From positions 1-50,800 of IMG/VR virus record IMGVR_UViG_3300022937_000032: a stretch of DNA of 50,800 bases; one strand, given 5' to 3'. Numbering within the stretch: position 1 is the stretch's first letter; each line of letters begins with the position of its first letter. Shown here piece after piece: positions 11,515 to 27,156 of this stretch. The translations under genes were made by a program, and so were the position numbers. The notes beneath the pieces were generated by a model, which was not told where the DNA came from, ran no database searches, and worked only from the letters and a program-made list of their open reading frames with translations. This stretch comes from a virus.

Positions 11515-13365
11515 ATGGCAAATCCAAAAACACCGATTACCGAATTAGATTTCGCGGCAATTAAAGAACAGTTTAAAGTATATCTTCAAACACAAACTCA
11601 GTTTAAAGATTATAACTTTGAAGGTTCTAATATGTCAGCGTTGCTTGATGTACTTGCATTTAACAGTTATCAAAATAACTTTTATACAAACATGGCACTC
11701 AATGAAATGTTTCTTGATTCTGCCAATCTTAAAAACTCAATCGTTTCTCATGCAAAAGAATTAAACTATATTCCAAGATCACGTAAATCTGCAAAAGCAA
11801 TTTTAAATTTGAGAATCGTAGACAATACCGAAACAGCATCTACAATTACAGTTCCACAATATTTTGCTCTATCTTCAAACTATCAAGGTGAAAGTTATAA
11901 CTTCATTACCAATCAATCATACACAGCAAGAAGAACTGCTCCTGGTGTATATGAAGTACAAAATGTAGAATTCTTTGAAGGAGAAATATTATCAAGTTTC
12001 CAAAGAGAAGGATTTATTGTTGATGCCGACGGTGTATTAAGAGTATATTTAACAAACAACGAAGTAGATACCGATTCCATTGTTGTATATGTTGACGCCG
12101 AAGCAACCGATGATGCAAATGTATTCACAAGAGCAAATACTATTTTCGGTGTTAAGCCTGATGATAAAGTATTTTATTTAGAACCATATCTCGATGATCG
12201 TTATTCAATTTACTTTGGTAAGAATCAGTTCGGTTTACAACCTGAAGAATTTGAAGATGTAAGAGTAAGATATAGAATCTGTTCAGGTGCAGAACCAAAT
12301 GGAGCCGATACTTTTGGTTCAGGCACAATTGGAGATAATGCAACTGTATCAGCAACAACAGTTGTAGCAGCTGCAGGTGGTGCTGAAAGAGAATCAATGG
12401 AATCTATTCGATACTTTGCTCCTAAAGCATTACAGGTTCAAGAAAGAGCAGTCACAACAAAAGATTACGAAGTATTATTACAACAAGCATTCCCTGAAAT
12501 TTCTGCGGTCTCTGCTTACGGTGGAGAACAACTTGACCCACCTCAATTTGGAAGAGTTGCGATTTCAGTTTTCTTAAATGATAATACAGAAATCATTTCT
12601 TCAACATTATCTAATTCTTATATTGCATATTTAAAAGAAAGAGCGCCATTAGGTATCGAACCTATATTCATTGCGACCGAATACTTATATGCTGATATGG
12701 TTGTGAATGTAACTTACAGTAAAAAGAATACAGAAAAATCTGCGTCAGATTTAGAAAAAATGGTTAGGGATGCAATTACAAAATATTCCGACGAAAATCT
12801 TGAAGGATTTAATAAAACTTTACGACTATCTAAACTGTCAGGTAAAATTGATGATTTAGATGTAGGTATTGAAAGTAATGAAATTTCAGTTGCTCCAATT
12901 ATCGAGTATACTCCTCCATTAAACTTTAATACTAATCCTTCATTTAGATTTGAAACTGAACTTACGAAACCATATCCTTATAGAAGTGCAAATGGTTTCA
13001 CAGATTATAAACCTGCGATTAAATCAACTACATTTGATGTTGATGGAACTTGTGTATTTTTACAAGATGATGGTAAAGGTAATATTATGACCATCACTGA
13101 TGAGATTATTAATCCACAAATTATTAATCCAACCGCAGGAACAGTCGATTATGTTAAAGGAGAAGTTAAATTAACCAACTTTAAAGTCGAGAATTTTACT
13201 GGTTCAGCAATTAAGATTATGGCAAAAACTAAAGTTGATGATGTTAAAGCTCCACAAGGTAGAGTGTTTATTATAAGAGACGTTGATGTTAAAATTTATA
13301 TGAATTTAGACGAAGCTACTAAAACTACAACATCATCTACAGGAACAACAACAGCATCTTATTAA
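11515..13365 (+). CDS. 6: Baseplate wedge gp6
   Basis: This 616-residue protein (T4 gp6 is 660) starts with ITELDFAAIKEQFKVYLQTQ and FEGSNMSALLDVLAFNSYQN, then NMALNEMFLDSANLKNSIVS and KELNYIPRSRKSAKA, a diagnostic gp6/BaseplateJ N-terminus. The central ESIRYFAPKALQVQERAVTT and DYEVLLQQAFPEISAVSAYG are the conserved J-type core. gp6 forms the continuous ring that connects wedges. The end is Thr/Ser-rich (KTTTSSTGTTTAS). It belongs to the same operon as gp25, 12 bases before gp7. Confidence 0.93.
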   Translation: MANPKTPITELDFAAIKEQFKVYLQTQTQFKDYNFEGSNMSALLDVLAFNSYQNNFYTNMALNEMFLDSANLKNSIVSHAKELNYIPRSRKSAKAILNLRIVDNTETASTITVPQYFALSSNYQGESYNFITNQSYTARRTAPGVYEVQNVEFFEGEILSSFQREGFIVDADGVLRVYLTNNEVDTDSIVVYVDAEATDDANVFTRANTIFGVKPDDKVFYLEPYLDDRYSIYFGKNQFGLQPEEFEDVRVRYRICSGAEPNGADTFGSGTIGDNATVSATTVVAAAGGAERESMESIRYFAPKALQVQERAVTTKDYEVLLQQAFPEISAVSAYGGEQLDPPQFGRVAISVFLNDNTEIISSTLSNSYIAYLKERAPLGIEPIFIATEYLYADMVVNVTYSKKNTEKSASDLEKMVRDAITKYSDENLEGFNKTLRLSKLSGKIDDLDVGIESNEISVAPIIEYTPPLNFNTNPSFRFETELTKPYPYRSANGFTDYKPAIKSTTFDVDGTCVFLQDDGKGNIMTITDEIINPQIINPTAGTVDYVKGEVKLTNFKVENFTGSAIKIMAKTKVDDVKAPQGRVFIIRDVDVKIYMNLDEATKTTTSSTGTTTASY

Positions 13366-13377
13366 GAGAGAAGAAAC

Positions 13378-16300
13378 ATGCCTCAGGGTGAAATAGAAAA
13401 AAATATATCGCTTTTTATTGAGCGTCAATTCCCTGCGATTTATCGGGAAGATGGTCCTGAGCTTGTTCAATTAGTTAAGGATTATTATAAATGGTCTGAA
13501 ACTCAAGAAAATCAACATATCTATCAGCAAAGAAGATTTTTTGAAACTAAAGATATAGATACTACATTGGAGAGTATGATTATATTCTTCAAGAAAAAGT
13601 TTCTTGCCGATCTTCCACTTAAATCTGATATCATTAAATTCATTATTAAAAATATCCTTGACTTATATAGGTCAAAAGGTACTGCTCGTGGTATAGAATT
13701 ATTCTTTGCCATTTTCTATCAAGAACATGAAATTGAAATTGTATATCCTTCTGAAAAGATGGCAAGAGTTTCAGACTCTGAATGGAAACAAGGTGTTTAT
13801 TTACAAATGTTTCCAAACAATAATCAATTCTTTTCAAAGTCAGGAAAAGAATATTCATATTTCGATTTATTATCTCGTAACATTACAGGTGCTTTCTCCG
13901 GAGCAAAAGCATCAGTTCGTTCAGTTAACTTCTTTATCTTAAACGGTATTAAAACTGCTGTTGTATACCTTGATGGTATTAAAGGAAACTTTGAAAAGTT
14001 TGAAGATATCACAACAAAAATAAACGGTGAAGTTGTTGGCTTTGGTAAAGTAAATGGTTCATTATCTGGATTTATAGTTGACAGTGCTGCCAAAGGAATG
14101 ACAGGAAGATCTGTTGGTGAGATCCTTGATGTTAGGCAAAAAGATGGAAATTCTGGTAAAGCAATCGTTACTGCATTATCTGATGAAAGCACAGGAAGAA
14201 TTAATTATACTTTACTTGATGGCGGTTATGGTTATACTATTGACAACACAAGGTTATTGGTTTCTAATCAATCTCTTATTTTTAATAATGAAGATTTAAA
14301 TTATATCGTTGGAGAAACAGTTGAAGATCAGGCTGGTAATTCTGGTACTGTGATCGGACAAAATGAAAGTTCTGCTGGATTTAAAATGGATTCAGGAGAA
14401 GCATTTACTATTGCTAGTATAATAACAACTGTAAGACCAAATGATGCACAAGGAAATCCTGTCCCACAATTTGTAATTACTGTAAATTCACAAGGTAATC
14501 AACTTACAGTTAAAAATGAATCTTCTCCAGGTTTATTATATCCTGACACAGCATCTACAGACGATGTAATAGTTACAGGATTAACCGATACATCAATCGC
14601 AAATGTTATAACCGATGTTATAACTCCACATTTATCAACAGTTTTAAATATTGCTGATTATGAAGTTAATGCTCCGTTCTCAGGTACCGCTTCTCCAGTT
14701 AATTTAAGTACTCCATTAGATGAAGCATTTGATATTCAATCTTTAACTATTGGTAGTATTACTGGATTTTCAAATATTAACCCAGGCGGTGATTATAAGA
14801 ATGATGTATTCGCAATTGCTCAAGATTCTGTGTTTAAAAACTTTCAAAGAAAAAATCAAGTTATTCAATTTACTGATGCAGGAGACGCTGGTAGTTTTTC
14901 AATTGGAGATAGAATTCAAGGTGTAAGCACTGGCATTAAAGGTGTTGTTAAAAGTATTAATCAGGATGCAGGAAGTATTACCGTCACTCCATTTGATTAT
15001 AATGGATTTGACGGAGAAGATATAAGATTTGAAGGTTCTCCAGAACCAACACTTGAAGTTTCTGCTGTAGAGACAGATTATTTAAATTCTCCAAACATGG
15101 GAGATAATGCTGTTATTGATGCTGAGACGGAATTTGCTGTAGGAAGAGTTTCAGAAGTAGCAATATTAGCTTCAGGATTTGGATATGTTGATTATGAAAC
15201 AGACCCAGTTGACTTTGCGACAGGAAAAGGCGAATTAAGAGATGCAAATAATGATATCGTTAGTGTCGGATGGATTGAAGCAAAGAAACAAGGTGTTACA
15301 TCAGGATATTGGGCAGGAGAAAATTCTCACTTAAGTGGTTTTAGAATACAGCCAGGACAAACAGCAAACACAACATTAGAATATTATGATTCAGGTTCAA
15401 GAATTCAAGATAGTGATTTTTATCAAGAGTATTCTTATCAAATTAAATCAACATTGCCGTTAGGAGAATACGAAAAATTATTAAAAGAAAATGTTCACCT
15501 AGCAGGTACAAAACTATTTGGTGACTTTACATTTAAAGCTTATGTTGGTTCAACAATGAAACCACGATTCTTAAGAATGTTCAATGATGATGGAACAGGT
15601 TCACCATTTGACCTAGCTGACATTACAGCATTAAGAGCCTCAGTCACTAATTATACAGCAGATAGTACTTATGTATCAGCGGATCATGAACCAGGAGGTG
15701 CTGGTGGATTAACACTAAGTACAAGTTCAGTAACTGATTTAACGATTACTAGAAATTGGAGTCAAGGCTTCCACGATTATGACGTGACAATACAAATGCC
15801 TACACAAGGTTCTGCTCCTTACCCAGTTGCTATTTTATTACATGAAAACGGTGGAACTGGTGCAGGAATGGTTTCTCAATTCGCCTCTTCATTACCAGGA
15901 CATATATTAATCGGTGTTGATGGATTTACTAATTCATGGAATATTGCTAATGAAATATCAAAAGGTCCTGATATATCAGTATTAGACGAATTAATTGATA
16001 TGTTAAAAATATATAATAATGTTGATGATACCAAGATTCGTATTATTGGTGAAGGCAACGGTGGTGCACTTGCATTAAGAGCCGCAATTGAACTTGGTGA
16101 TACTTCTATTGATACAGTTATAAGTATGCTATCACAAGCCCACACAGAACAATACAGAAACAATAACTTCTATTATCCGTCTAATCATGAGCTTACAGGT
16201 GGAAGTAATACAAACTTAGGTTACGATTATATTAAATCACCAATACCTCAAAGAAAAATAGTTTGTATGAATGGTACTCAAGATTCAACAGTACCATACA

Positions 16301-16542
16301 CAGGAGGTATTGTTTCAGGTGTAACATATATTTCAGCACAAGACAGTGTATTTAGATTTGCTCAAGCTCAAGGTTATTTAGGAAATCAAATCTTAGGCGG
16401 AGCAACTTATGGAACAAATAGTTTAATTGTTGACTATAACAATGTAATATTCTTAAAGGATGCTGTTGCACATACTGTATCAGCTGATATGCTTTATTTA
16501 GTTAATAAGTACCTTGAGAACAATTACGATATAACATATTAG
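13378..16542 (+). CDS. 7: Baseplate wedge gp7-like protein with C-terminal degenerate esterase domain
   Basis: This is a 1,054-residue protein. Residues 1-180 (SLFIERQFPAIYREDGPELV, FYQEHEIEIVYPSEKMARV) match the gp7-type N-terminus, and position after gp6 fits (T4 gp7 is 1,032). The middle has repeated beta modules with GETVEDQAGNSGTVIGQ-type motifs and a YxxxKSTLP-like block near 690. From about residue 783 the sequence becomes an alpha/beta-hydrolase of the PHB-depolymerase/LpqC esterase type: VAILLHENGGTGAGM (oxyanion loop, residues about 816-830), GEGNGGALALRAA (nucleophile elbow), MNGTQDSTVPYTGG (acid Asp969) and VAHTVSADM (His1032). In the elbow the expected GxSxG serine is Gly893 (GGC; AGC would be Ser), so the domain is probably a binding module rather than an enzyme. 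gp7 is the outer wedge arm, so this domain may face outward. Identity is strong for the N-terminus, and fairly strong for the fold. Confidence 0.8.
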   Translation: MPQGEIEKNISLFIERQFPAIYREDGPELVQLVKDYYKWSETQENQHIYQQRRFFETKDIDTTLESMIIFFKKKFLADLPLKSDIIKFIIKNILDLYRSKGTARGIELFFAIFYQEHEIEIVYPSEKMARVSDSEWKQGVYLQMFPNNNQFFSKSGKEYSYFDLLSRNITGAFSGAKASVRSVNFFILNGIKTAVVYLDGIKGNFEKFEDITTKINGEVVGFGKVNGSLSGFIVDSAAKGMTGRSVGEILDVRQKDGNSGKAIVTALSDESTGRINYTLLDGGYGYTIDNTRLLVSNQSLIFNNEDLNYIVGETVEDQAGNSGTVIGQNESSAGFKMDSGEAFTIASIITTVRPNDAQGNPVPQFVITVNSQGNQLTVKNESSPGLLYPDTASTDDVIVTGLTDTSIANVITDVITPHLSTVLNIADYEVNAPFSGTASPVNLSTPLDEAFDIQSLTIGSITGFSNINPGGDYKNDVFAIAQDSVFKNFQRKNQVIQFTDAGDAGSFSIGDRIQGVSTGIKGVVKSINQDAGSITVTPFDYNGFDGEDIRFEGSPEPTLEVSAVETDYLNSPNMGDNAVIDAETEFAVGRVSEVAILASGFGYVDYETDPVDFATGKGELRDANNDIVSVGWIEAKKQGVTSGYWAGENSHLSGFRIQPGQTANTTLEYYDSGSRIQDSDFYQEYSYQIKSTLPLGEYEKLLKENVHLAGTKLFGDFTFKAYVGSTMKPRFLRMFNDDGTGSPFDLADITALRASVTNYTADSTYVSADHEPGGAGGLTLSTSSVTDLTITRNWSQGFHDYDVTIQMPTQGSAPYPVAILLHENGGTGAGMVSQFASSLPGHILIGVDGFTNSWNIANEISKGPDISVLDELIDMLKIYNNVDDTKIRIIGEGNGGALALRAAIELGDTSIDTVISMLSQAHTEQYRNNNFYYPSNHELTGGSNTNLGYDYIKSPIPQRKIVCMNGTQDSTVPYTGGIVSGVTYISAQDSVFRFAQAQGYLGNQILGGATYGTNSLIVDYNNVIFLKDAVAHTVSADMLYLVNKYLENNYDITY

Positions 16543-16583: not shown

Positions 16584-17981
16584 ATGGCCAAGCAAATTAT
16601 TAATATCGGTGCATCTGCAAATGACGGAACAGGTGATCCGTTAAGAAACGCATTCGATAAAACAAACGATAACTTTAATGAGTTATACCTTGCTTTAGGC
16701 GGAGCATCGAGTGCAACAAATTTATTTGACACTAACGGTGCTTTTGACTTAGTCGGTAAACCTCATAAGATTACATTTTATTACGATACTGAAGCCGCAT
16801 TACTTCAGGTAAACCCAGCAACTTATCATGGAGCAATAGGACATGCTCATGATACAGGAGCTTTATATTACGCTCACGGAAGTTGGAGAAAATTATTATC
16901 TGACACTTCAGGCGGTTCTATTACTAATTACACAGACCCACTTAACGCATTTGTATATTCGGCCAATATTACAAATAGTGAACAAGCAGGTTATGTTCTT
17001 GGTACAAGTGCAAACGGAAGCTATTCTTGGATAGCAGGTGGTGGTTCTTCGTTTACCACTACAGATGTTGACAATCATCTTAATTCAGGTTCAGCCCAAA
17101 CTAATGAAGTGTTAAGTTGGGATGGTTCTGATTATGCTTGGGTATCTGCCGGCGGCGGCAGTAGTTATACTGATAGCGACGTCAATGCTCACTTGAATGT
17201 ATCAGGTGCAGGAAGTAACGAAGTATTACAATGGAGCGGTTCAGATTATCAATGGGCTGCTTTACCAACTGGGTTTACAACAGGTGCTGTTGATGCTCAC
17301 CTAAATACTGGTTCAGCTTCAGCAAGTCAATTATTAAGTTGGGATGGTTCTGATTATGCTTGGGTATCTGCAGGTGGTGGTAGTGGTTATACTGACAGTG
17401 ATGTAAATGCTCACTTAAATACTTCTACTGCTTCTAGCGGAGAAGTTCTAAGTTGGGATGGTTCTGATTATGACTGGGTTACTGTTTCATCATACACAAA
17501 TTCTAATGTAGACGCTCATATAAACACCAGCACTGCAGCTAATAATGAAGTACTAAGTTGGAATGGAACTGACTACGAGTGGGTAGCTCAAAGTGGCGGA
17601 GGCGGCGGTCTTCAAACAAGAACAACAAAATCTATCGCAACAAGTTCTATTTCTGATGGTGTAAAAGTTGATACAGCAATAGATGGATTCGCAAGTTTTG
17701 GTTTAATGAAGATTGAAACTTCTCATGCTGCTTGGGTAAGACTATATGTTGATACTGCTTCAAGAACGGCTGATGCTTCAAGATTAGAAACAACAGATCC
17801 TTCTCCTGATGCAGGTGTTATTGCTGAAGTAATTACAACAGGTGCTGAAACTATTAAGTTCGGTCCTGGTGTATTAGGTTGGTTAGATTCAGGAACATCT
17901 ATTCCTGTTTCAATTACAAATAAATCCGGTGGCCAGGCCGCAATAACAGTCACATTAACTGTATTAGAATTAGAGGCTTAA
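16584..17981 (+). CDS. Repeat-bearing virion fibre or decoration protein
   Basis: This is a 465-residue protein. The N-terminus INIGASANDGTGDPLRNAFD followed by KTNDNFNELY is a common attachment start in marine phage structural proteins. Residues about 155-345 are five tandem units of about 37 residues (DVxAHLNTxxAxxxEVLSW then DGSDYxWV), separated by Gly/Ser linkers. The C-terminal 120 residues (VRLYVDTASRTADASR, GVIAEVITTGAETIKFGPGV, ITVTLTVLELE) form a beta domain seen at the ends of many phage appendage proteins, possibly glycan-binding. AGGAAAG precedes the ATG. The gene lies in an accessory position between gp7 and gp8, 4 bases ahead of the subtilase gene, so the two products may act together. 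No enzyme motif is visible. The exact role is unknown. Confidence 0.72.
   Translation: MAKQIINIGASANDGTGDPLRNAFDKTNDNFNELYLALGGASSATNLFDTNGAFDLVGKPHKITFYYDTEAALLQVNPATYHGAIGHAHDTGALYYAHGSWRKLLSDTSGGSITNYTDPLNAFVYSANITNSEQAGYVLGTSANGSYSWIAGGGSSFTTTDVDNHLNSGSAQTNEVLSWDGSDYAWVSAGGGSSYTDSDVNAHLNVSGAGSNEVLQWSGSDYQWAALPTGFTTGAVDAHLNTGSASASQLLSWDGSDYAWVSAGGGSGYTDSDVNAHLNTSTASSGEVLSWDGSDYDWVTVSSYTNSNVDAHINTSTAANNEVLSWNGTDYEWVAQSGGGGGLQTRTTKSIATSSISDGVKVDTAIDGFASFGLMKIETSHAAWVRLYVDTASRTADASRLETTDPSPDAGVIAEVITTGAETIKFGPGVLGWLDSGTSIPVSITNKSGGQAAITVTLTVLELEA
17045..17616 (+). repeat. Five tandem 'DVxAHLN ... LSWDGSDYxWV' repeats
   Basis: Five in-frame repeats of about 110 bases lie within the fibre gene. 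Units 1 and 3 share a nearly identical stretch of about 45 bases around the LSWDGSDYAWVSA coding segment, differing mainly at third positions in the Gly run. This points to fairly recent internal duplication. Confidence 0.8.
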
Positions 17982-17985
17982 TTTA

Positions 17986-19680
17986 ATGAAGGAATATATT
18001 GTCACTCTTCATAATAAAGAAGACCTAGAAGATTTCTATAATGATATGGAAACTCCTGGCGGTGACCTTTATATTCCTGATAGAGCAGTTGATTTAACAT
18101 TAAGAAGAGCAATAAGTCGTAATACTTATTATATGTTAACTCCTGAAGAAGCGGAACAATTAAAAGAAGATCCGAGAGTGTGGGATGTTTCCCCAAAAGA
18201 TTTAATAGATTTAATTGAATGGAAACCAACAGGTTATTCGGATTCAGGTAACTTTGTTAGAAATAGTAGTTCTTTCCCATCTTCTTCTGAAAAAAATTGG
18301 GGAATGTTAAGACATAATGTTACGAATAACATTGATGGAAATTGGGGCGCTGATAGTGTTTCTACTAAATCAGGATCATTCACAATTACGGCATCAGGAA
18401 AAAATGTTGATGTATTAATTGTTGATGGAAGTATTACAACTGCTGCAGCAAATCATCCTGAATTCGCAGTAAATCCAGATGGCAGCGGTGGAACAAGAGT
18501 TCAATTCTTTAATTGGTTCTCTCTTACAAATCAATTAGGATTTGGGTCGAATGGAAATTATGATTATACTACGGTAGGATCATCCTCTGATACTGCTCAC
18601 GGGTGCCATGTTACTGGAACAGTCGCAGGTAATACCTTAGGTTGGGCAAGGGATGCAAATATTTACAGTTTAGAATTTTATTATTCAGGCGCCGTAAACT
18701 ATGGTGGTGTTCTCACTCAGGACACAATGTGGGATTATATTCGTGAATGGCATAATACCAAACCAATTAATACAGCAACAGGTCGACGAAATCCTACAGT
18801 AAGCAATCATAGTTATGGTGGTACATATACAAAAGATTCATTAATTACAAATGGACCTTATGATAGCATAGGAGCAATGAATTTTAGAGGTACATTGTAT
18901 AATCCTCTTGGCGATTTTAGTAGAGGTTTAAATGATGCTGAATTAGAAGAAAGAGGTATTAATGTACCAGGAAATGGTGATTGGGAAATTAGTGCATATT
19001 ATACTTCTTTCATAGCCGACATTCAAGATGCAATAGCTGACGGGATTATTGTAGTATGTGCTTCAGGAAATCATTATCAAAAAGTAACTTTATCAGGCGA
19101 TCAAGATTATAATAATATTGCTTATTTAGAACAAAGCGGATCCATTGTATCTGCATTTAATACACACAGACCTGGAATTAGTGGAGGCGGAGCTGTTCCA
19201 GAAAGTATTGTAGTAGGGAATCTTGATGACCAATCCAATGATAGAAAAAGAGCTTCTTCAGTTTGTGGTGGTGCAGTTGATATACATGCAGCAGGATCTG
19301 GTATTGTGAGTTCAGTATATGGAACAGGGAATGTACAAGATAGTAGGAATGGAAGTTTTTGGCTATCAAAATATACTGGGACAAGTATGGCATCTCCACA
19401 AGTAACAGGTGTATTGGCGTTATTTGCTGAAAGTAATCCAAACTTAGTTCAATCAGATGCAGTTGCTTTTCTTACGAATATGGCAACAATGAATCAGATG
19501 TATGATACAGCAACTGACGATTGTACTGACTTTGAAAGCTTACAAGGTGCACCAAACAAAATTTTATATTGGAAAAATCAAAGACCTGAAACAGGAATGA
19601 GTTTTCCAAAACAAAATGCAAAAGCAAGACCTACATCAGGTCGAGCCTGGCCTAGACCAAGAATGAGAGTTAGAGGTTAG
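17986..19680 (+). CDS. Subtilisin-like serine protease (S8) with propeptide-like N-terminus
   Basis: This is a 564-residue protein with a complete subtilase triad: Asp147 in VDVLIVDGS, His205 in DTAHGCHVTGTVAGN, and Ser467 in YTGTSMASPQVTGVLAL. The oxyanion Asn362 is in VVCASGNHY. Residues 1-70 (EYIVTLHNKEDLEDFYNDM, LTPEEAEQLKEDPRVWDVSP) look like an I9-type propeptide, which folds and inhibits subtilases until self-cleavage. No signal peptide is seen, so it acts in the host cytoplasm during assembly or from the virion. The tail is basic (RPTSGRAWPRPRMRVRG) and may anchor to DNA or acidic virion surfaces. It follows the repeat fibre gene by 4 bases, inside the baseplate cluster, and there is no such gene in T4 itself. 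Protease family and intact site are well supported; the target (virion protein, host surface protein) is unknown. Confidence 0.9.
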   Translation: MKEYIVTLHNKEDLEDFYNDMETPGGDLYIPDRAVDLTLRRAISRNTYYMLTPEEAEQLKEDPRVWDVSPKDLIDLIEWKPTGYSDSGNFVRNSSSFPSSSEKNWGMLRHNVTNNIDGNWGADSVSTKSGSFTITASGKNVDVLIVDGSITTAAANHPEFAVNPDGSGGTRVQFFNWFSLTNQLGFGSNGNYDYTTVGSSSDTAHGCHVTGTVAGNTLGWARDANIYSLEFYYSGAVNYGGVLTQDTMWDYIREWHNTKPINTATGRRNPTVSNHSYGGTYTKDSLITNGPYDSIGAMNFRGTLYNPLGDFSRGLNDAELEERGINVPGNGDWEISAYYTSFIADIQDAIADGIIVVCASGNHYQKVTLSGDQDYNNIAYLEQSGSIVSAFNTHRPGISGGGAVPESIVVGNLDDQSNDRKRASSVCGGAVDIHAAGSGIVSSVYGTGNVQDSRNGSFWLSKYTGTSMASPQVTGVLALFAESNPNLVQSDAVAFLTNMATMNQMYDTATDDCTDFESLQGAPNKILYWKNQRPETGMSFPKQNAKARPTSGRAWPRPRMRVRG

Positions 19681-19728: not shown

Positions 19729-21693
19729 ATGGCAGAAATCCTAACAAATAATTTTAAAAGTGATGTAAACAAAACTTTCATCATTGATGCAAAAGCGAAT
19801 GAAGATTATTATATGTTTGTTTCTTCTATCGGAACATTCAATCCGGTAGATTCTGCCGTCTCACAAAATGAATTTTTAGAAAATACATTATTTGCCAAGA
19901 AGATTAAAAACGAAGATATTAATTTTATGATTAGATATTATCCTTGGCAAAGAGGAACAGTATATACTCAATACGATGATGCAGTCGATTTAACAGGAAC
20001 AAACTTTTATGCAGTAGTTGGTCCTAATGATAATGATACCGGTGACTACCGAATTTATAAATGTTTGGATAACAACAACGGCGGAACTGCAGAATCGCCT
20101 CCTACATTTGATAATGCTAACTTAAATCAAATTTATGAAACGGCAGACGGTTATGTGTGGAAGTATATGTATCGTCTCACTACATTACAATTCGAGGGGT
20201 ATAATGCATTAGGTTATATACCAATTGATCCTTCAGCAACGATTGAACCAGCGGAGGTTTCAGGCGGTGGAATATCAGATATAGAAGTAACAAATGCTGC
20301 TTCTAATCAAGGATATCAACAAAAATATGCTGTATTAGATTTTATCTTTGGAAGAACTGGTGGAATAAATGTTCACGGAGAAGTTTCTGTTAGAGTAGAT
20401 CCTCTTGATACAACTTGGTCTTCAATTGATAACTATTATGTAGGACAATATCTTTATATCACAAACCCAAGTTCAAGTGTAACAAATTTATTCAGAATAG
20501 ATTATTACAAATATAATACATCAACAGGTAAAGCAGAAATTAGAGTTGGACCAGAATTGTCAAATCCTAATAGAGGAAATGTTGAAGGTGCAACACAAGC
20601 CAATCCAGTAGTTATTACATCAACCGATCACGGTCTTTCTCAAAGACAACCTATTCGTTTTAAAGATGTAGGCGGTATGACAGAACTAAACGATGATGAT
20701 GGAGATGGAAATCCAGTTTATTATGTTGATGTTATAGATACAAACAATTTTAGTTTAAAAACAGATACTTCTTTATCATCAGGTCTAGACGGTTCAGGAT
20801 TTGGAGCATTTACTTCAGGCGGAACTTGGGAAGCAGATAAAGACTTAGTTACAGCAGGTGTTAAGACACAAGGACCTGCAGATATTATACCAAGAATTGA
20901 TATTAAAGGTGATGGAGTTGGTGCAGTTGCGATTCCTGTTATTGACGAAGATCGAATTGCATCTGTTACTGTTTTGAATGCAGGTTCAGGATATAATAAT
21001 GTAATTGCAGAAGTTGTAGATCCAATTGTAGATTTTAATCCTGACGATGATAACTCAACGGATGTAAGAGCAGTCATAAGACCTATAATTGAACCTAAAG
21101 GCGGTCATGCATACAATCTTATTGATGAATTAAAATGTAAACACTTTTCAATGTATGCATATATTACAGCAGATGATAATACAAATATAGGTGATGTAAA
21201 TACATATGGGTCATTAGGAATTGTAAGAACTCCGTCCTTTAGGGATGTTGGTGCAGGTACATGGAGAAGCGGTCAAGCAAACACTGCTTTAATTCCTGAT
21301 ATATTTGATAACAGAATAGCAATTACAACGGATGATTGGCAAAGTGTAACAGCAAACAGTATTGTGACTCAAGTAGATGGAAGTAATCAGATTACATTTA
21401 CAGCACAAGTACATGAAATTGACGACACAGCAAACACAATTTATTTGGCTGAATACATGGGTCCATATCAAAATAATAAGCTTGTAGGTAACGGAGATAC
21501 ATCTTTTAACCCTAATCTTGATATTGTATCAGATACAGGTCAGAGAATCACAATAAATAATCCTGTAGACGATAATATTGTGTATTCAGATTATATACAA
21601 AGAACAGGTGAAGTATACTTCATGGAAGACTTCTTCCCATTAGCAAGAACAGACCTATCAAGAGAAGAATTTAAGTTTGTATTGGAATTTTAA
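19729..21693 (+). CDS. 8: Baseplate wedge gp8
   Basis: This is a 654-residue protein. The N-terminal 150 residues carry the marine gp8 signatures: YYMFVSSIGTFNP, ENTLFAKKIKNEDINFMIRY, YPWQRGTVYTQYDD, YRIYKCLDNNNGG and ADGYVWKYMYRLTT. T4 gp8 is 334 residues; marine forms are longer through inserted beta domains. Here residues about 285-370 hold an insert of the widespread phage-tail type (STDHGLSQRQPIRFKDVGGM, then TELN and NFSLKTDTS). The C-terminus returns to conserved sequence (YIQRTGEVYFMEDFFPLARTD). gp8 bridges gp7 and gp6 in the wedge. The preceding fibre-subtilase cassette separates it from gp7. Confidence 0.85.
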   Translation: MAEILTNNFKSDVNKTFIIDAKANEDYYMFVSSIGTFNPVDSAVSQNEFLENTLFAKKIKNEDINFMIRYYPWQRGTVYTQYDDAVDLTGTNFYAVVGPNDNDTGDYRIYKCLDNNNGGTAESPPTFDNANLNQIYETADGYVWKYMYRLTTLQFEGYNALGYIPIDPSATIEPAEVSGGGISDIEVTNAASNQGYQQKYAVLDFIFGRTGGINVHGEVSVRVDPLDTTWSSIDNYYVGQYLYITNPSSSVTNLFRIDYYKYNTSTGKAEIRVGPELSNPNRGNVEGATQANPVVITSTDHGLSQRQPIRFKDVGGMTELNDDDGDGNPVYYVDVIDTNNFSLKTDTSLSSGLDGSGFGAFTSGGTWEADKDLVTAGVKTQGPADIIPRIDIKGDGVGAVAIPVIDEDRIASVTVLNAGSGYNNVIAEVVDPIVDFNPDDDNSTDVRAVIRPIIEPKGGHAYNLIDELKCKHFSMYAYITADDNTNIGDVNTYGSLGIVRTPSFRDVGAGTWRSGQANTALIPDIFDNRIAITTDDWQSVTANSIVTQVDGSNQITFTAQVHEIDDTANTIYLAEYMGPYQNNKLVGNGDTSFNPNLDIVSDTGQRITINNPVDDNIVYSDYIQRTGEVYFMEDFFPLARTDLSREEFKFVLEF

Positions 21694-21708: not shown

Positions 21709-24700
21709 ATGCCTATTAATAAAAATTTAAATATTGCCCCATACTTCGATGATTACGATGTTGAAAAGCAGTTTTATCGAGTTATGTTCAAACCTGGTTA
21801 TGCTATTCAGGCAAGAGAGCTTACTCAATTACAATCAATGCTTCAAAATCAAGTCGAGCAGTTTGGTGATAATATTTTCAAAGAAGGTTCAATTGTTAAG
21901 GGATGTAACTTTACAGAACTTGATGATCTTAAATATGTAAAAGTAAATGACGGTCCTGTTGGATTTAATGCACTTGCATATATTAGTGGACCTGGTGTAG
22001 AACCTATTCAAGGACAAGATGTTGAAGTTGATTATGTTTACGAACTTGTTGGTCAATCGACAGGTTTAAGAGCAGAGATTGTTCAAGCTTCAGTTGGTTT
22101 CCAAACAAGACCACCAGATTTAAACACTTTTTATATTAACTATTTAAATACTGTTCCATCAGCAAAAGAATTCCAGGCTGGTGAAAACCTAATTATTAAT
22201 AAGCATAAGTACTTAAGAGGAACGACCACAGGTACTCTTGCATCCGAAGTTGTATTATCACAAGGTCTTGCTGTTAGTACAGGAGTTAGTACACCACATG
22301 TTGGTAAGTCTTTTGGTATTGAATCTGCTCCAGGTATTATATTTCAAAAAGGACACTTTATCTTTGTTGCAGAGCAAAGAATTGTAGTTGAAAAATATTC
22401 CGACCAACCCGACGAAAAATCTGTTGGTTATTCAGTAAGCGAATCTTTAATAAGTGCATTACAAGATGCATCATTATACGATAATGCAAACGGTTCTAAA
22501 AATGAAAATGCTCCGGGTGCAGACAGATTAAAGCTTGTACCTAATTTAACAGTTTTAGCTACTGCTGATGCAAAAGCAGACGAGAGTTTCTTTACATTAG
22601 TTCGTTATCAAAATGGTAATGCAATTACTGTCCGTGATGTTTCTCAATACAATGTATTAGGTGAGGAACTTGCTCGAAGAACATACGAAGAATCAGGCAA
22701 TTACATTTTACAACAATTCCCATTAAGCACAGACGATCGTGTTCCTTCAGGAGCTGCTAACTCTGAGGTTCAAGTTATTGTAGGACAAGGTGTTGCTTAT
22801 GTTAAAGGTTATCGAGTAGAAAATTCTGGTGAGCGTTCATTCACAATTGACCAAATTTCATCAACAGAAGAAATATTCAATCAAAATGTTTCTATGGAAT
22901 ATGGAAACTATGTTGAAGTTTTAGGCGGAGGTAATCCTGGTACAGGTTGGAATGGAAGATTAGATTTAGATATTACTGGTACTGCTAATGCACAAACAGC
23001 AGCTAATGCTAATATGGGTAGTGTTACTATTCAAAACCTAACACCTGAAAGAATTTATTTACATTCATCTATGTATACTGGTGCGTATGCAATGTCAGAT
23101 TTAGATAGAATTTCTGATGGTAATGGATATGTTCAAATTAAGCAAACATCAGGCGGCGCACCTTTACTTAAAGAAACAAATAAAAAGGCATTAATTTTTG
23201 ATACAGGTCTTAATGGATTATTCGCAACAAGTAATACACTTATTCCTGTAAGAGCTCAAGTATCCGCAACTCATACAAGTGGATCTATTACAATTACAGC
23301 AAACCCAGGAGAAGATTTCAATTGTCTTAATGATGATATATTGGTTGTTGATAATTCTTCAGTTCAGTGGCCTGCTACATATACTACTTCATTAAACAAT
23401 TCACAACTTAATATTAACATTGACCCAAGTGCTGCTGCAGGTGTTACTGTTTATTATAATAAAAGATTAATTGGTTCAACCGCTGGTGTTGATCCATACA
23501 ACAAAACAGTAAGAGAGCCTTGGATTAGATTCGTTTGGAATAATGCTAAAACAAAATACAGCTTAGGTTTTCCTGATGTCTTTGATATTATTTACATCGA
23601 AGATTCAAGTGGTAATGACGTCACAAGTAGTTTCAGATTAAAAAGAAACCAAAAAGATACTTATTACGATATATCATATTTAGAATATATTGAAGGTCGA
23701 CCTATACCAACAGGTACTTGTTCTGTTCACTTAAAAGTATTTGAAGTTAATACATCAACTGGTGATTATTTCTTTACTATTAACAGTTATCCAAATACAT
23801 TAAGCAGATACGATATTCCTTCTTATGTATCTTCTACAGGTAAAGTTTATAACTTAAGAGAATGTTTTGATTTTAGAGCATATATTGATAAAGATAGTAA
23901 TGCAAATTATAATGCTTCAACTGCAGGCTCTGCTCCAATAATTTCACAAACGGTTGGACAATATCCTTTATCATTTACTAATTTAGGAGCTCCATTAATT
24001 CCTGCTGCTCAACAATCATTACAAACAGACATAGAATACTACCTAACAAGAATTGATACTATTGCCTGTGATTCATACGGAGAAATCAGTTTAATTAAAG
24101 GTGAAGAAGAAAGATACGCGGTTCCACCAAAACTAGGAAATGACAAATTAGCAATTGCCGAAGTTGAAGTTCCTACATATCCTGCATTATCTAAGAAACA
24201 AGCTGATGTTCTTCGTAAGAGAGAATATGCTGTTAAGCCAAGAGCAACAGGTATTAAGAATTACACAATGAAAGATCTTCATTCTTTAGAGAAGAAGATT
24301 GATAACATGGCTTATTATATTTCATTAAATCAATTAGAGTCTGATACATCAAATTTAATTATCAGAGATGAAAATGGATTAAACAGATTTAAGAATGGGT
24401 TTGTCGTAGATCCATTTAACGATTTAACGTTGGCTGAAATTACACATCCACAATTTAGTTCAGCAGTTCCGTTTAATCAAAAGATTTTAACTCCGTCATT
24501 AAAAACATTTGCATTAGATTTGATTTATGAATCTTCAACAGGTTCTTCTGTATTCCCAAGCACTGATGATGCTAAAGCTGCAACCATTGGAAGAAATCAA
24601 AACGTAGATATTATTGAGCAACCTTATGCTTCTAATTTTAGAAACTGTGTTTCTAACTTCTATAAGTACATAGGTGATGGAGTTATTTCTCCACCTTATG

Positions 24701-27156
24701 ATGCGGCTTATGATACAACAGTTAATCCTGCTACGATTGATATTGATCTAACAACTCCTTTCCAAGATTTTGTTGATGATATTCAGCAATTCATTCCAAT
24801 GACTGATACAACAGTAACTACACAAATTACTGATGATCGTTGGGTAAGAAGATTTGGTAATAGAGGAGCAAGAACAGAAGTAGATACCATCACAACAAGA
24901 ACAAGTGAAATCAGTATTGATGGTTCAACAACAACCGAACAATTTGTTGGAGAATTTGTTTCTGACTTTAGATTCCAACCATTTATGGCAGGAAGAGATA
25001 TTAAAGTTTATATGTCAGGATTAAGACCTAATCAAAGACATTACTTCTTCTTTGATGGTGTTGATGTAAATGCTCATGTATTACCAGGTTCACCAACAGC
25101 AGATTCAGTCGGAGACGTTCAAAGATACGGAGAAAAAGGCGATGCGGTTGAAACAGATGGAAACGGCGTATTAAGAGCCGTATTTGCTTTACCACCAGAA
25201 ACATTCTATGTTGGTGATAGAGTATTAGAAATCGTTGACGTAAATCAGTATGCAAGTATTGAATCCGCTTCTACTTCAAAAGGATTCATTACATATAGAG
25301 CATATAATTTCAGTGTTGAAAAAACAGCACTAACAACTTCAACAAGATCTCCAAACTTTGATGTTAACACAACAGTTACCACAAGAAACGTTGCCCGACG
25401 TATTAGAGGTAGAGATCCACTTGCACAAACATTCTTTATTAAGAAAGGTATGGGTGCAGGTTCAAATTCAGTATACTTATCAGATATTGATATCTATTTT
25501 AAACGTAAGCCGTCTCAAACCACAGGCGGTGCTAATGCCAATGCTGCATTGAATGGAGTCACCGTTCAAATCAGAGAGGTAGTTAATGGTTATCCTACTA
25601 ATCAAATACTTCCTTTCTCTGCAGTTCATAAACTGCCTTCACAGGTAAATGTATCAGACGATGCTTCCGCAGCAACAACATTTGCCTTTGAAGCGCCAGT
25701 TAGATTAGATGTTGAAAAAGAATATTGTGTTGTTATTCAACCTGATGCTTCGGATCCTAACTATCTTGTATTTACTTCTAAAGTCGGTGGTACAGATTTA
25801 ACTCCAGGTGATACTCAAGGTTCAGCCATTGTTCAGGATTGGGGAGACGGTGTTCTATTTACCTCAACAAATAACTCTGCTTGGAAATCATATCAAGACG
25901 AAGATATTAAATTTACATTAAGAAGACATAACTTTAATTCTTCTACAGGTACCGTAAGATTAACAAATAATAAAAATGAATTCTTCTCTGTAGACAATAT
26001 TACTGGAAGATTTAATGCTGGTGAACAAGTATACCAAGAAAAAGCATTAGATCCTAACACAAGTACAACAATCACAGTCGCAAATGCCAATAATGTAATT
26101 ACAGGTACCGCGTTAACTGATACATATTCTGAAGGAGACTTCCTTAAGATCTCTGGTGGATCGCCTGTCGTTTCAGGTTTATTTAAGGTAGTGACAATTA
26201 CAAATGCAGATACACTTGTTCTTGATAGACCATGGTTCTCAACCGGCGGTTCAGCAAATCATCTTCCTGTCGTGGTTGGTGATTTATGTTACTATGATTT
26301 AAGAAATCCATTTGAAATGTATTTAGAAAATTCATCAGTAACAACAACTCGTGTATTTGCCACAGGGTCAAATATTATTGGACTTGATAGTGGCTCAACC
26401 GCTAATCTATCGGCAATTAACAATATTAATTTAAGTTATGTTCAGCCGATGATTATGAGAGCAAATGATTCAACTTCTAAAACAAATTTAACTGGAACCT
26501 TCGTTCCTCCAGCAGATGTTAATTCAACTTATCTATCGCAAATGAAGTTCAATGATAATAATCACTTTAGTCAACAAGGTGTTATTATTTACAGTATGTC
26601 TAATGATCCTTCAAGAACAAAGGTATTTAAATTAAATATTGGTCTTGAAAATGGATCTAACGTAACTTCAACACCATTTGTTGATATTGAATCTTCTAAG
26701 TTAATTGCGTATCAATATAAGATTACGAATGATCCAGCAACAACTGCAAAATATATTAGTAAAGTAATTGAATTGGCAGAAGATCTTGATGCAGAAGATT
26801 TCAATTTAATTCTTTCTGCTTATCGTCCAACCAATACAAATGTTAAAGTTTATATCAAAGCTCAAAATGCATATGACAATGATGAGTTTGATAATTTAGA
26901 TTGGACAGAATTAGAATTATTTGAAGGTGTAGGTTCATATTCAACTGTTTCAAACCTAAATGATTACAGAGAATTTAAATATAGAATTGCTGCCGCTGAT
27001 AAGACAGGTTCTTCACCTAGCGGTCCGTATGTATACAGCTCACAAGGCGGAACATTCGAAGGATTTAAGAGATTCCAAATTCGTATAGATTTATTATCAC
27101 CAAACATTCATAGTGCACCTACACTTAAAGATTATCGTGGAATTGCATTGACATAG
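21709..27156 (+). CDS. DUF4815-type virion structural protein (large baseplate or fibre protein)
   Basis: This is a 1,815-residue protein. The N-terminus NIAPYFDDYDVEKQFYRVMF then KPGYAIQARELTQLQSMLQN is the hallmark of DUF4815 proteins, common next to gp8 in marine T4-like phages. A coiled stretch MKDLHSLEKKIDNMAYYISL starts near residue 854. Near residue 1,090 is GRDIKVYMSGLRPNQRHYFF followed by FDGVDV, and near 1,237 DPLAQTFFIKKGMGAG, both recurrent in these proteins. Residues about 1,450-1,500 look like a small inserted beta domain (VITGTALTDTYSEGDFLKIS). The position after gp8 corresponds to the gp9/gp10 fibre-connecting region of T4, so a baseplate periphery or fibre-socket role is likely but inferred. 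No enzymatic motif is seen. It starts 15 bases after gp8. Confidence 0.75.
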   Translation: MPINKNLNIAPYFDDYDVEKQFYRVMFKPGYAIQARELTQLQSMLQNQVEQFGDNIFKEGSIVKGCNFTELDDLKYVKVNDGPVGFNALAYISGPGVEPIQGQDVEVDYVYELVGQSTGLRAEIVQASVGFQTRPPDLNTFYINYLNTVPSAKEFQAGENLIINKHKYLRGTTTGTLASEVVLSQGLAVSTGVSTPHVGKSFGIESAPGIIFQKGHFIFVAEQRIVVEKYSDQPDEKSVGYSVSESLISALQDASLYDNANGSKNENAPGADRLKLVPNLTVLATADAKADESFFTLVRYQNGNAITVRDVSQYNVLGEELARRTYEESGNYILQQFPLSTDDRVPSGAANSEVQVIVGQGVAYVKGYRVENSGERSFTIDQISSTEEIFNQNVSMEYGNYVEVLGGGNPGTGWNGRLDLDITGTANAQTAANANMGSVTIQNLTPERIYLHSSMYTGAYAMSDLDRISDGNGYVQIKQTSGGAPLLKETNKKALIFDTGLNGLFATSNTLIPVRAQVSATHTSGSITITANPGEDFNCLNDDILVVDNSSVQWPATYTTSLNNSQLNINIDPSAAAGVTVYYNKRLIGSTAGVDPYNKTVREPWIRFVWNNAKTKYSLGFPDVFDIIYIEDSSGNDVTSSFRLKRNQKDTYYDISYLEYIEGRPIPTGTCSVHLKVFEVNTSTGDYFFTINSYPNTLSRYDIPSYVSSTGKVYNLRECFDFRAYIDKDSNANYNASTAGSAPIISQTVGQYPLSFTNLGAPLIPAAQQSLQTDIEYYLTRIDTIACDSYGEISLIKGEEERYAVPPKLGNDKLAIAEVEVPTYPALSKKQADVLRKREYAVKPRATGIKNYTMKDLHSLEKKIDNMAYYISLNQLESDTSNLIIRDENGLNRFKNGFVVDPFNDLTLAEITHPQFSSAVPFNQKILTPSLKTFALDLIYESSTGSSVFPSTDDAKAATIGRNQNVDIIEQPYASNFRNCVSNFYKYIGDGVISPPYDAAYDTTVNPATIDIDLTTPFQDFVDDIQQFIPMTDTTVTTQITDDRWVRRFGNRGARTEVDTITTRTSEISIDGSTTTEQFVGEFVSDFRFQPFMAGRDIKVYMSGLRPNQRHYFFFDGVDVNAHVLPGSPTADSVGDVQRYGEKGDAVETDGNGVLRAVFALPPETFYVGDRVLEIVDVNQYASIESASTSKGFITYRAYNFSVEKTALTTSTRSPNFDVNTTVTTRNVARRIRGRDPLAQTFFIKKGMGAGSNSVYLSDIDIYFKRKPSQTTGGANANAALNGVTVQIREVVNGYPTNQILPFSAVHKLPSQVNVSDDASAATTFAFEAPVRLDVEKEYCVVIQPDASDPNYLVFTSKVGGTDLTPGDTQGSAIVQDWGDGVLFTSTNNSAWKSYQDEDIKFTLRRHNFNSSTGTVRLTNNKNEFFSVDNITGRFNAGEQVYQEKALDPNTSTTITVANANNVITGTALTDTYSEGDFLKISGGSPVVSGLFKVVTITNADTLVLDRPWFSTGGSANHLPVVVGDLCYYDLRNPFEMYLENSSVTTTRVFATGSNIIGLDSGSTANLSAINNINLSYVQPMIMRANDSTSKTNLTGTFVPPADVNSTYLSQMKFNDNNHFSQQGVIIYSMSNDPSRTKVFKLNIGLENGSNVTSTPFVDIESSKLIAYQYKITNDPATTAKYISKVIELAEDLDAEDFNLILSAYRPTNTNVKVYIKAQNAYDNDEFDNLDWTELELFEGVGSYSTVSNLNDYREFKYRIAAADKTGSSPSGPYVYSSQGGTFEGFKRFQIRIDLLSPNIHSAPTLKDYRGIALT

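Follow-up and report, generated by a model that had tools for sequence, protein, structure and literature searches.

Cyanophages S-ShM2, S-SSM4, ACG-2014d, and ACG-2014h carry, in proteins of PHROG 2576, the domain that is the subject of this study (37 to 40% identity). In three of them (S-ShM2, S-SSM4, and ACG-2014d), the gene with this hydrolase domain adjoins baseplate genes. The domain follows a YHYH domain in S-ShM2 and a subtilase in ACG-2014h, and the proteins are annotated as hypothetical or, in S-ShM2, as "gp7: baseplate wedge initiator." In contrast to the protein described below, these cyanophage proteins keep the catalytic Ser, and their domain is not attached to a gp7 core. Among characterized proteins, acetyl xylan esterase B of Aspergillus oryzae (AoAXEB; PDB 9j07 and 9j08) and the type 1 PHA depolymerases (NF050058) share the fold and the order of nucleophile elbow, acid, and His with our domain. 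However, they are free enzymes with an elbow Ser and show 20% identity to it.

Phage tailspike esterases and deacetylases mostly have SGNH folds, are carried on trimeric tailspikes, and are active enzymes. Virion deacetylases acting on host glycans are known, as the report on phage PP99 indicates (PMC6989608), and Vi-type acetyl esterase tailspikes, as cited in PMC7029224, remove acyl groups from host glycans. The domain described here is likewise virion borne, but it lacks the nucleophile. Pseudoenzymes are an already known kind of protein. For example, neuroligins have a cholinesterase-like alpha/beta-hydrolase fold without the active-site serine and work by binding (PMC8526735). As animal synaptic adhesion proteins from another hydrolase family, they serve as an analogy only.

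Hydrolase domain at the C terminus of a gp7-type wedge protein

We analyzed a 50,800-nucleotide stretch of viral DNA (IMG/VR record IMGVR_UViG_3300022937_000032; here, the window). The main features of the gene and its neighborhood are as follows.

11515-13365: gp6 homologue (phrog_219), preceding the gp7 gene
13378..16542, + strand: gp7-type baseplate wedge protein (1,054 amino acids) ending in a hydrolase-fold domain
13378..15570, + strand: gp7 core (residues 1 to ~731)
15724..16539, + strand: alpha/beta-hydrolase domain (residues 783 to 1054; phrog_2576)
15841..15855, + strand: oxyanion-type loop HENGG (residues 822 to 826), with Glu823
16048..16065, + strand: nucleophile elbow GEGNGG (residues 891 to 896)
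16054..16056, + strand: Gly893 codon (GGC), in the place of the catalytic Ser
16123..16125, + strand: Ser916 (Cys in 50 of 51 relatives)
16282..16284, + strand: Asp969, catalytic acid, kept
16471..16473, + strand: His1032, catalytic histidine, kept
16584-17981: gp9-like gene, following the gp7 gene
17986-19680: subtilase gene, between the gp9-like gene and the gp8-position gene
19729-21693: wedge subunit (phrog_438) at the gp8 position

The open reading frame at 13378 to 16542 matches phrog_17744 (baseplate wedge subunit; E = 6e-94; best stretch, residues 5 to 315), and the Pfam family Baseplate_wedge scores it at 21.5 bits, below its cut-off of 27. A profile built from a 13-sequence gp7 alignment reached no solved gp7 chain by sequence. 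The protein is assigned to the T4-type gp7 group by its wedge-family match and by its gene order with gp6 and gp8. By tblastn, the core is common to Caulobacter phage Cr30 and Sinorhizobium phage phiM12 (to residue ~715 in the latter, whose homologue is annotated "similar to PHA02579"), and the gp7 proteins of these two phages gave no match to the hydrolase domain. The Cr30 coding sequence terminates 69 bases past the match to residue 731. With both matches stopping near these positions, where the Cr30 gene also ends, the hydrolase domain seems to have been added at the C terminus in the phage group of the window. Its placement on the outer wedge is presumed from the biology of T4 gp7. A full-length gp7 model (13 sequences; pLDDT, 52.9) was uninformative on how the domain docks.

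The neighboring genes have features of their own. The subtilase gene lies inside the baseplate gene cluster (Peptidase_S8, E = 3.9e-20), and the motif GTSMAS at residue 465 together with AHGCHVTGT and LIVDGSI stretches suggests an intact triad; its family, phrog_9158, is the one fused to the hydrolase domain in ACG-2014h. The gp9-like protein (T4_gp9_10_N) contains repeated units of the type DVNAHLNTSTASSGEVLSWDGSDY, with DNA repeats of ~133 bases at 80% identity. After the gp8-position gene, a large phrog_358 protein is encoded (21709-27156); in phiM12, gp8 is followed by a gene with a VrlC-like annotation. Thus, a VrlC-like gene may occur alongside a gp7 homologue; cyano- and pelagimyophages have been reported without gp7 and with VrlC (PMC7029224).

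Family and predicted fold of the domain

Residues 772 to 1049 match positions 290 to 582 of the 587-position profile of phrog_2576 ("unknown function"; E = 1.9e-64 for the whole protein), and this match over the hydrolase half of the profile places the domain in PHROG 2576. A domain-wide alignment extends to 65 cyanophage records at 37 to 40% identity. Given this E value and the number of aligning records, the family match is not due to chance. AlphaFold2, supplied with a 42-sequence alignment, predicted the domain with a mean pLDDT of 95.6 and a pTM of 0.93. The best solved structure found by Foldseek was AoAXEB (E = 1.9e-13; VIA superposition, Z = 24.4, rmsd of 3.1 across 241 residues), closely followed by feruloyl esterases, acyl-protein thioesterases, and PHB depolymerases. 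The family sequence profile also reaches the AoAXEB chain (E = 1.3e-9), whose GKSNGG elbow and GTADKTIPYGGG acid loop align with those of the window (acid loop, GTQDSTVPYTGG). The domain is assigned to the alpha/beta-hydrolase superfamily by its predicted fold and by the order of its elbow, acid, and His, as the first-pass annotation of the sequence had proposed.

That annotation had further named an LpqC/PHB-depolymerase type, which comes close. NCBIfam NF050058 (type 1 scl-PHA depolymerase) is matched by most of the family, including all 42 members compared (best E = 1.3e-12), but among solved structures, a fungal acetyl xylan esterase is the closest. The window protein itself scores 20.2 bits against NF050058, far below the curated cut-off of 150, and by this measure falls outside the CE1/PHA-depolymerase family; no Pfam family matched the domain at E = 0.01.

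Loss of the nucleophile and change of the HG loop

Enzymes of the alpha/beta-hydrolase fold have Ser, Cys, or Asp at the elbow, whereas the window has Gly893. The reading frame, the coordinates, and the motifs around Gly893, Asp969, and His1032 proved to be as first described. We collected 63 distinct domain sequences from scans of IMG/VR and of GTDB genomes and from the four cyanophages. The elbow residue is Ser in 60 of them and Gly in 3, the latter confined to the window lineage and one other lineage, while the acid and the histidine are invariant (63/63), including on the long L118 branch with its 1.4 changes per column. Every other gp7 fusion in the sample that covers the elbow has the complete catalytic set at the same gp7 position. 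Most of PHROG 2576 keeps the catalytic residues, and the dead version is a derived exception. The remark that GGC is one transition from AGC was correct as to the codon GGC, but the closest Ser-bearing sisters carry AGT or TCA. A scan for GxXNGA-type elbows with Ala, Asp, Val, or Glu codons at the nucleophile position gave 17 contigs and no relatives, and searches seeded with L121 (from the second Gly lineage) and S-ShM2 yielded nothing new beyond near-copies.

The HG loop is changed as well. All 51 Ser-bearing relatives on viral contigs read HG, whereas the window reads HE and the other Gly lineage reads HD. In the dereplicated set, an acidic residue at this position with an intact Ser is found only in ACG-2014d (HDDGG; 1 of 44 Ser sequences), giving an association of the acidic residue with elbow Gly at P = 0.003 (Fisher test), a value that ignores phylogeny and rests on two Gly lineages. 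In related thioesterases, the residue after the HG-loop Gly donates a backbone NH to the oxyanion hole. By analogy, an acidic side chain here would be expected to disturb substrate placement or to touch the catalytic His. Another variant of the loop was seen in a Ser-bearing relative (L110, 1850-2656), which has HGEGET rather than HGNGG.

On the basis of these comparisons, the loss of serine-hydrolase chemistry in the window domain is strongly supported, and the main point of the earlier reading, a dead hydrolase, stands. Two other serines were considered as migrated nucleophiles. Ser916 is thought unlikely since it lies inside a strand of the predicted model (domain residue 134; strand, 129 to 135), and the conserved Ser919 is thought unlikely since it appears equally in Ser-bearing relatives. 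Our search of the phage's own genome for esterases covered the 50.8-kb fragment, and a second, intact esterase may be encoded elsewhere in the phage.

A second lineage with Gly at the elbow

The second Gly lineage consists of the near-identical contigs L116, L117, L118, L121, and L123, with the following feature.

L121, 4138-7626: 1,162-residue protein with Ig-like repeats and the second Gly hydrolase domain (near-copies, L131 to L135)

Here, the hydrolase domain is located near the N terminus, and no gp7 part was detected in the protein. At E = 0.001, the protein matches a single PHROG family, phrog_2576, and does so across its hydrolase domain. This lineage repeats the replacement of Ser by Gly together with a change of the HG-loop Gly to Asp. 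In the tree, the window is placed among Ser-bearing gp7 fusions (support, 100/99). When the two trait columns and the long-branched L125 were left out, well-supported branches required two changes, and no bootstrap tree was found with one. A shared, single origin of Gly in the two sequences was borderline in the AU test (p = 0.066; lnL difference, 21), and a first, larger tree was compatible with one origin of Gly. The most economical history would be the uptake of a secreted esterase into phage tails, followed by a loss of the nucleophile in two lineages. The retention of the catalytic residues by the family, the repetition of the change in a second lineage, and the accompanying change of the HG-loop glycine were not part of the earlier reading.

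Proposed role of the domain and alternative explanations

We propose, with a probability of roughly two in three, that this gp7 carries at its C terminus a captured serine esterase domain of a CE1/PHB-depolymerase-like kind, which lost its nucleophile in this lineage and was kept as a noncatalytic virion module. The secreted esterase may have entered phage tails to modify polymers, the direction of this transfer being putative. During adsorption, the ancestral domain may have removed ester groups from a polymer of the host surface or of the extracellular space. The replacement of Ser by Gly, with the acidic HG-loop side chain, would then have abolished acyl-enzyme chemistry, and the pocket might now bind, uncut, the polymer that it once cleaved, or the domain might form a rigid peripheral element of the wedge. 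The bacterial relatives, all with Ser at the elbow, look exported or surface borne, which fits an extracellular polymer as the original substrate. Three are from Bacteroidota; of these, L126 was tested and has a type IX sorting domain, and the remaining two have similar ends. A relative from a myxobacterium resembles a lipoprotein, and one from Opitutia is a very large repeat protein.

A sequencing or assembly error at a true Ser codon might be considered, given that the difference is a single codon, but the comparison of homologues leaves this explanation practically negligible. Homologues have an intact Ser, yet all contigs of the window's population have Gly: five other IMG/VR contigs, which differ from the window by 6 to 18 nucleotides over the whole length (0.1 to 0.3%), carry the same GGC codon with no amino acid change in the domain, and four of the five have SNPs in gp7 relative to the window. 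In addition, Glu823 is changed too, and the second lineage shows the same replacement of Ser. Since every contig of the population has Gly, Gly893 is a fixed derived state rather than an error. It is also very unlikely that the domain was recently inactivated and is heading for loss. The window domain has moved somewhat farther from the outgroups than its sisters have (mean identity to outgroups, 0.602 versus 0.630 to 0.646; end branch, 0.23), but its frame is open, and its pairwise dN/dS against the sisters (0.18 to 0.20) is like that of the Ser-bearing sisters among themselves (0.17 to 0.25), values that are rough at synonymous distances of ~0.9. Population SNPs in the domain amount to one synonymous and no amino acid change, while the gp7 body has several of both. 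Departures from the 79 near-invariant columns are few (E823, G893, L906, and S916), with two of the four inside catalytic loops (clustering P = 0.09, not significant alone). The domain is therefore maintained, though its divergence has been somewhat faster than that of the sisters.

Two further explanations concern what a maintained domain does. It could be purely structural, a spacer or contact surface of the baseplate without a ligand, as its fusion to a wedge protein and the retention of the fold without the nucleophile would allow. We regard this as a possibility, albeit an unlikely one, because the full catalytic set in the other gp7 fusions makes catalysis likely ancestral and because the pocket still contains Asp and His. 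The retention of these two residues could also mean residual or altered chemistry. Glu823, Asp969, and His1032 might form a new acid-base or metal site for a nonserine route, an idea that draws on the pairing of elbow Gly with an acidic HG-loop residue in both Gly lineages, on the rarity of that acid among Ser sequences, and on the persistence of Asp and His along the long branch. We consider it improbable, as only two Gly lineages underlie the association and HDDGG beside an intact Ser in ACG-2014d indicates that Ser can persist alongside the acid. Our best reading is a pseudo-esterase that the phage retains for binding or for structure, with a putative binding role and a putative ligand, for which the earlier reading proposed a polysaccharide or polyester; most likely, the domain either binds its target uncut or has a structural function.

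Implications

Phage tail hydrolase domains might repeatedly turn from receptor-cleaving enzymes into receptor-binding modules through the same two changes (Ser to Gly and HG-loop Gly to Glu or Asp), with the acidic residue rewiring Asp and His into a ligand or metal site, although we consider so general a conversion unlikely. PHROG 2576, a family of "unknown function," gains a predicted fold and a probable ancestral chemistry, and its esterase domain is found in several different tail proteins. The window protein and its Ser-bearing sisters form a natural dead/live pair (72 to 75% identity) with which to ask whether an inactivated depolymerase is retained by phages for receptor binding.
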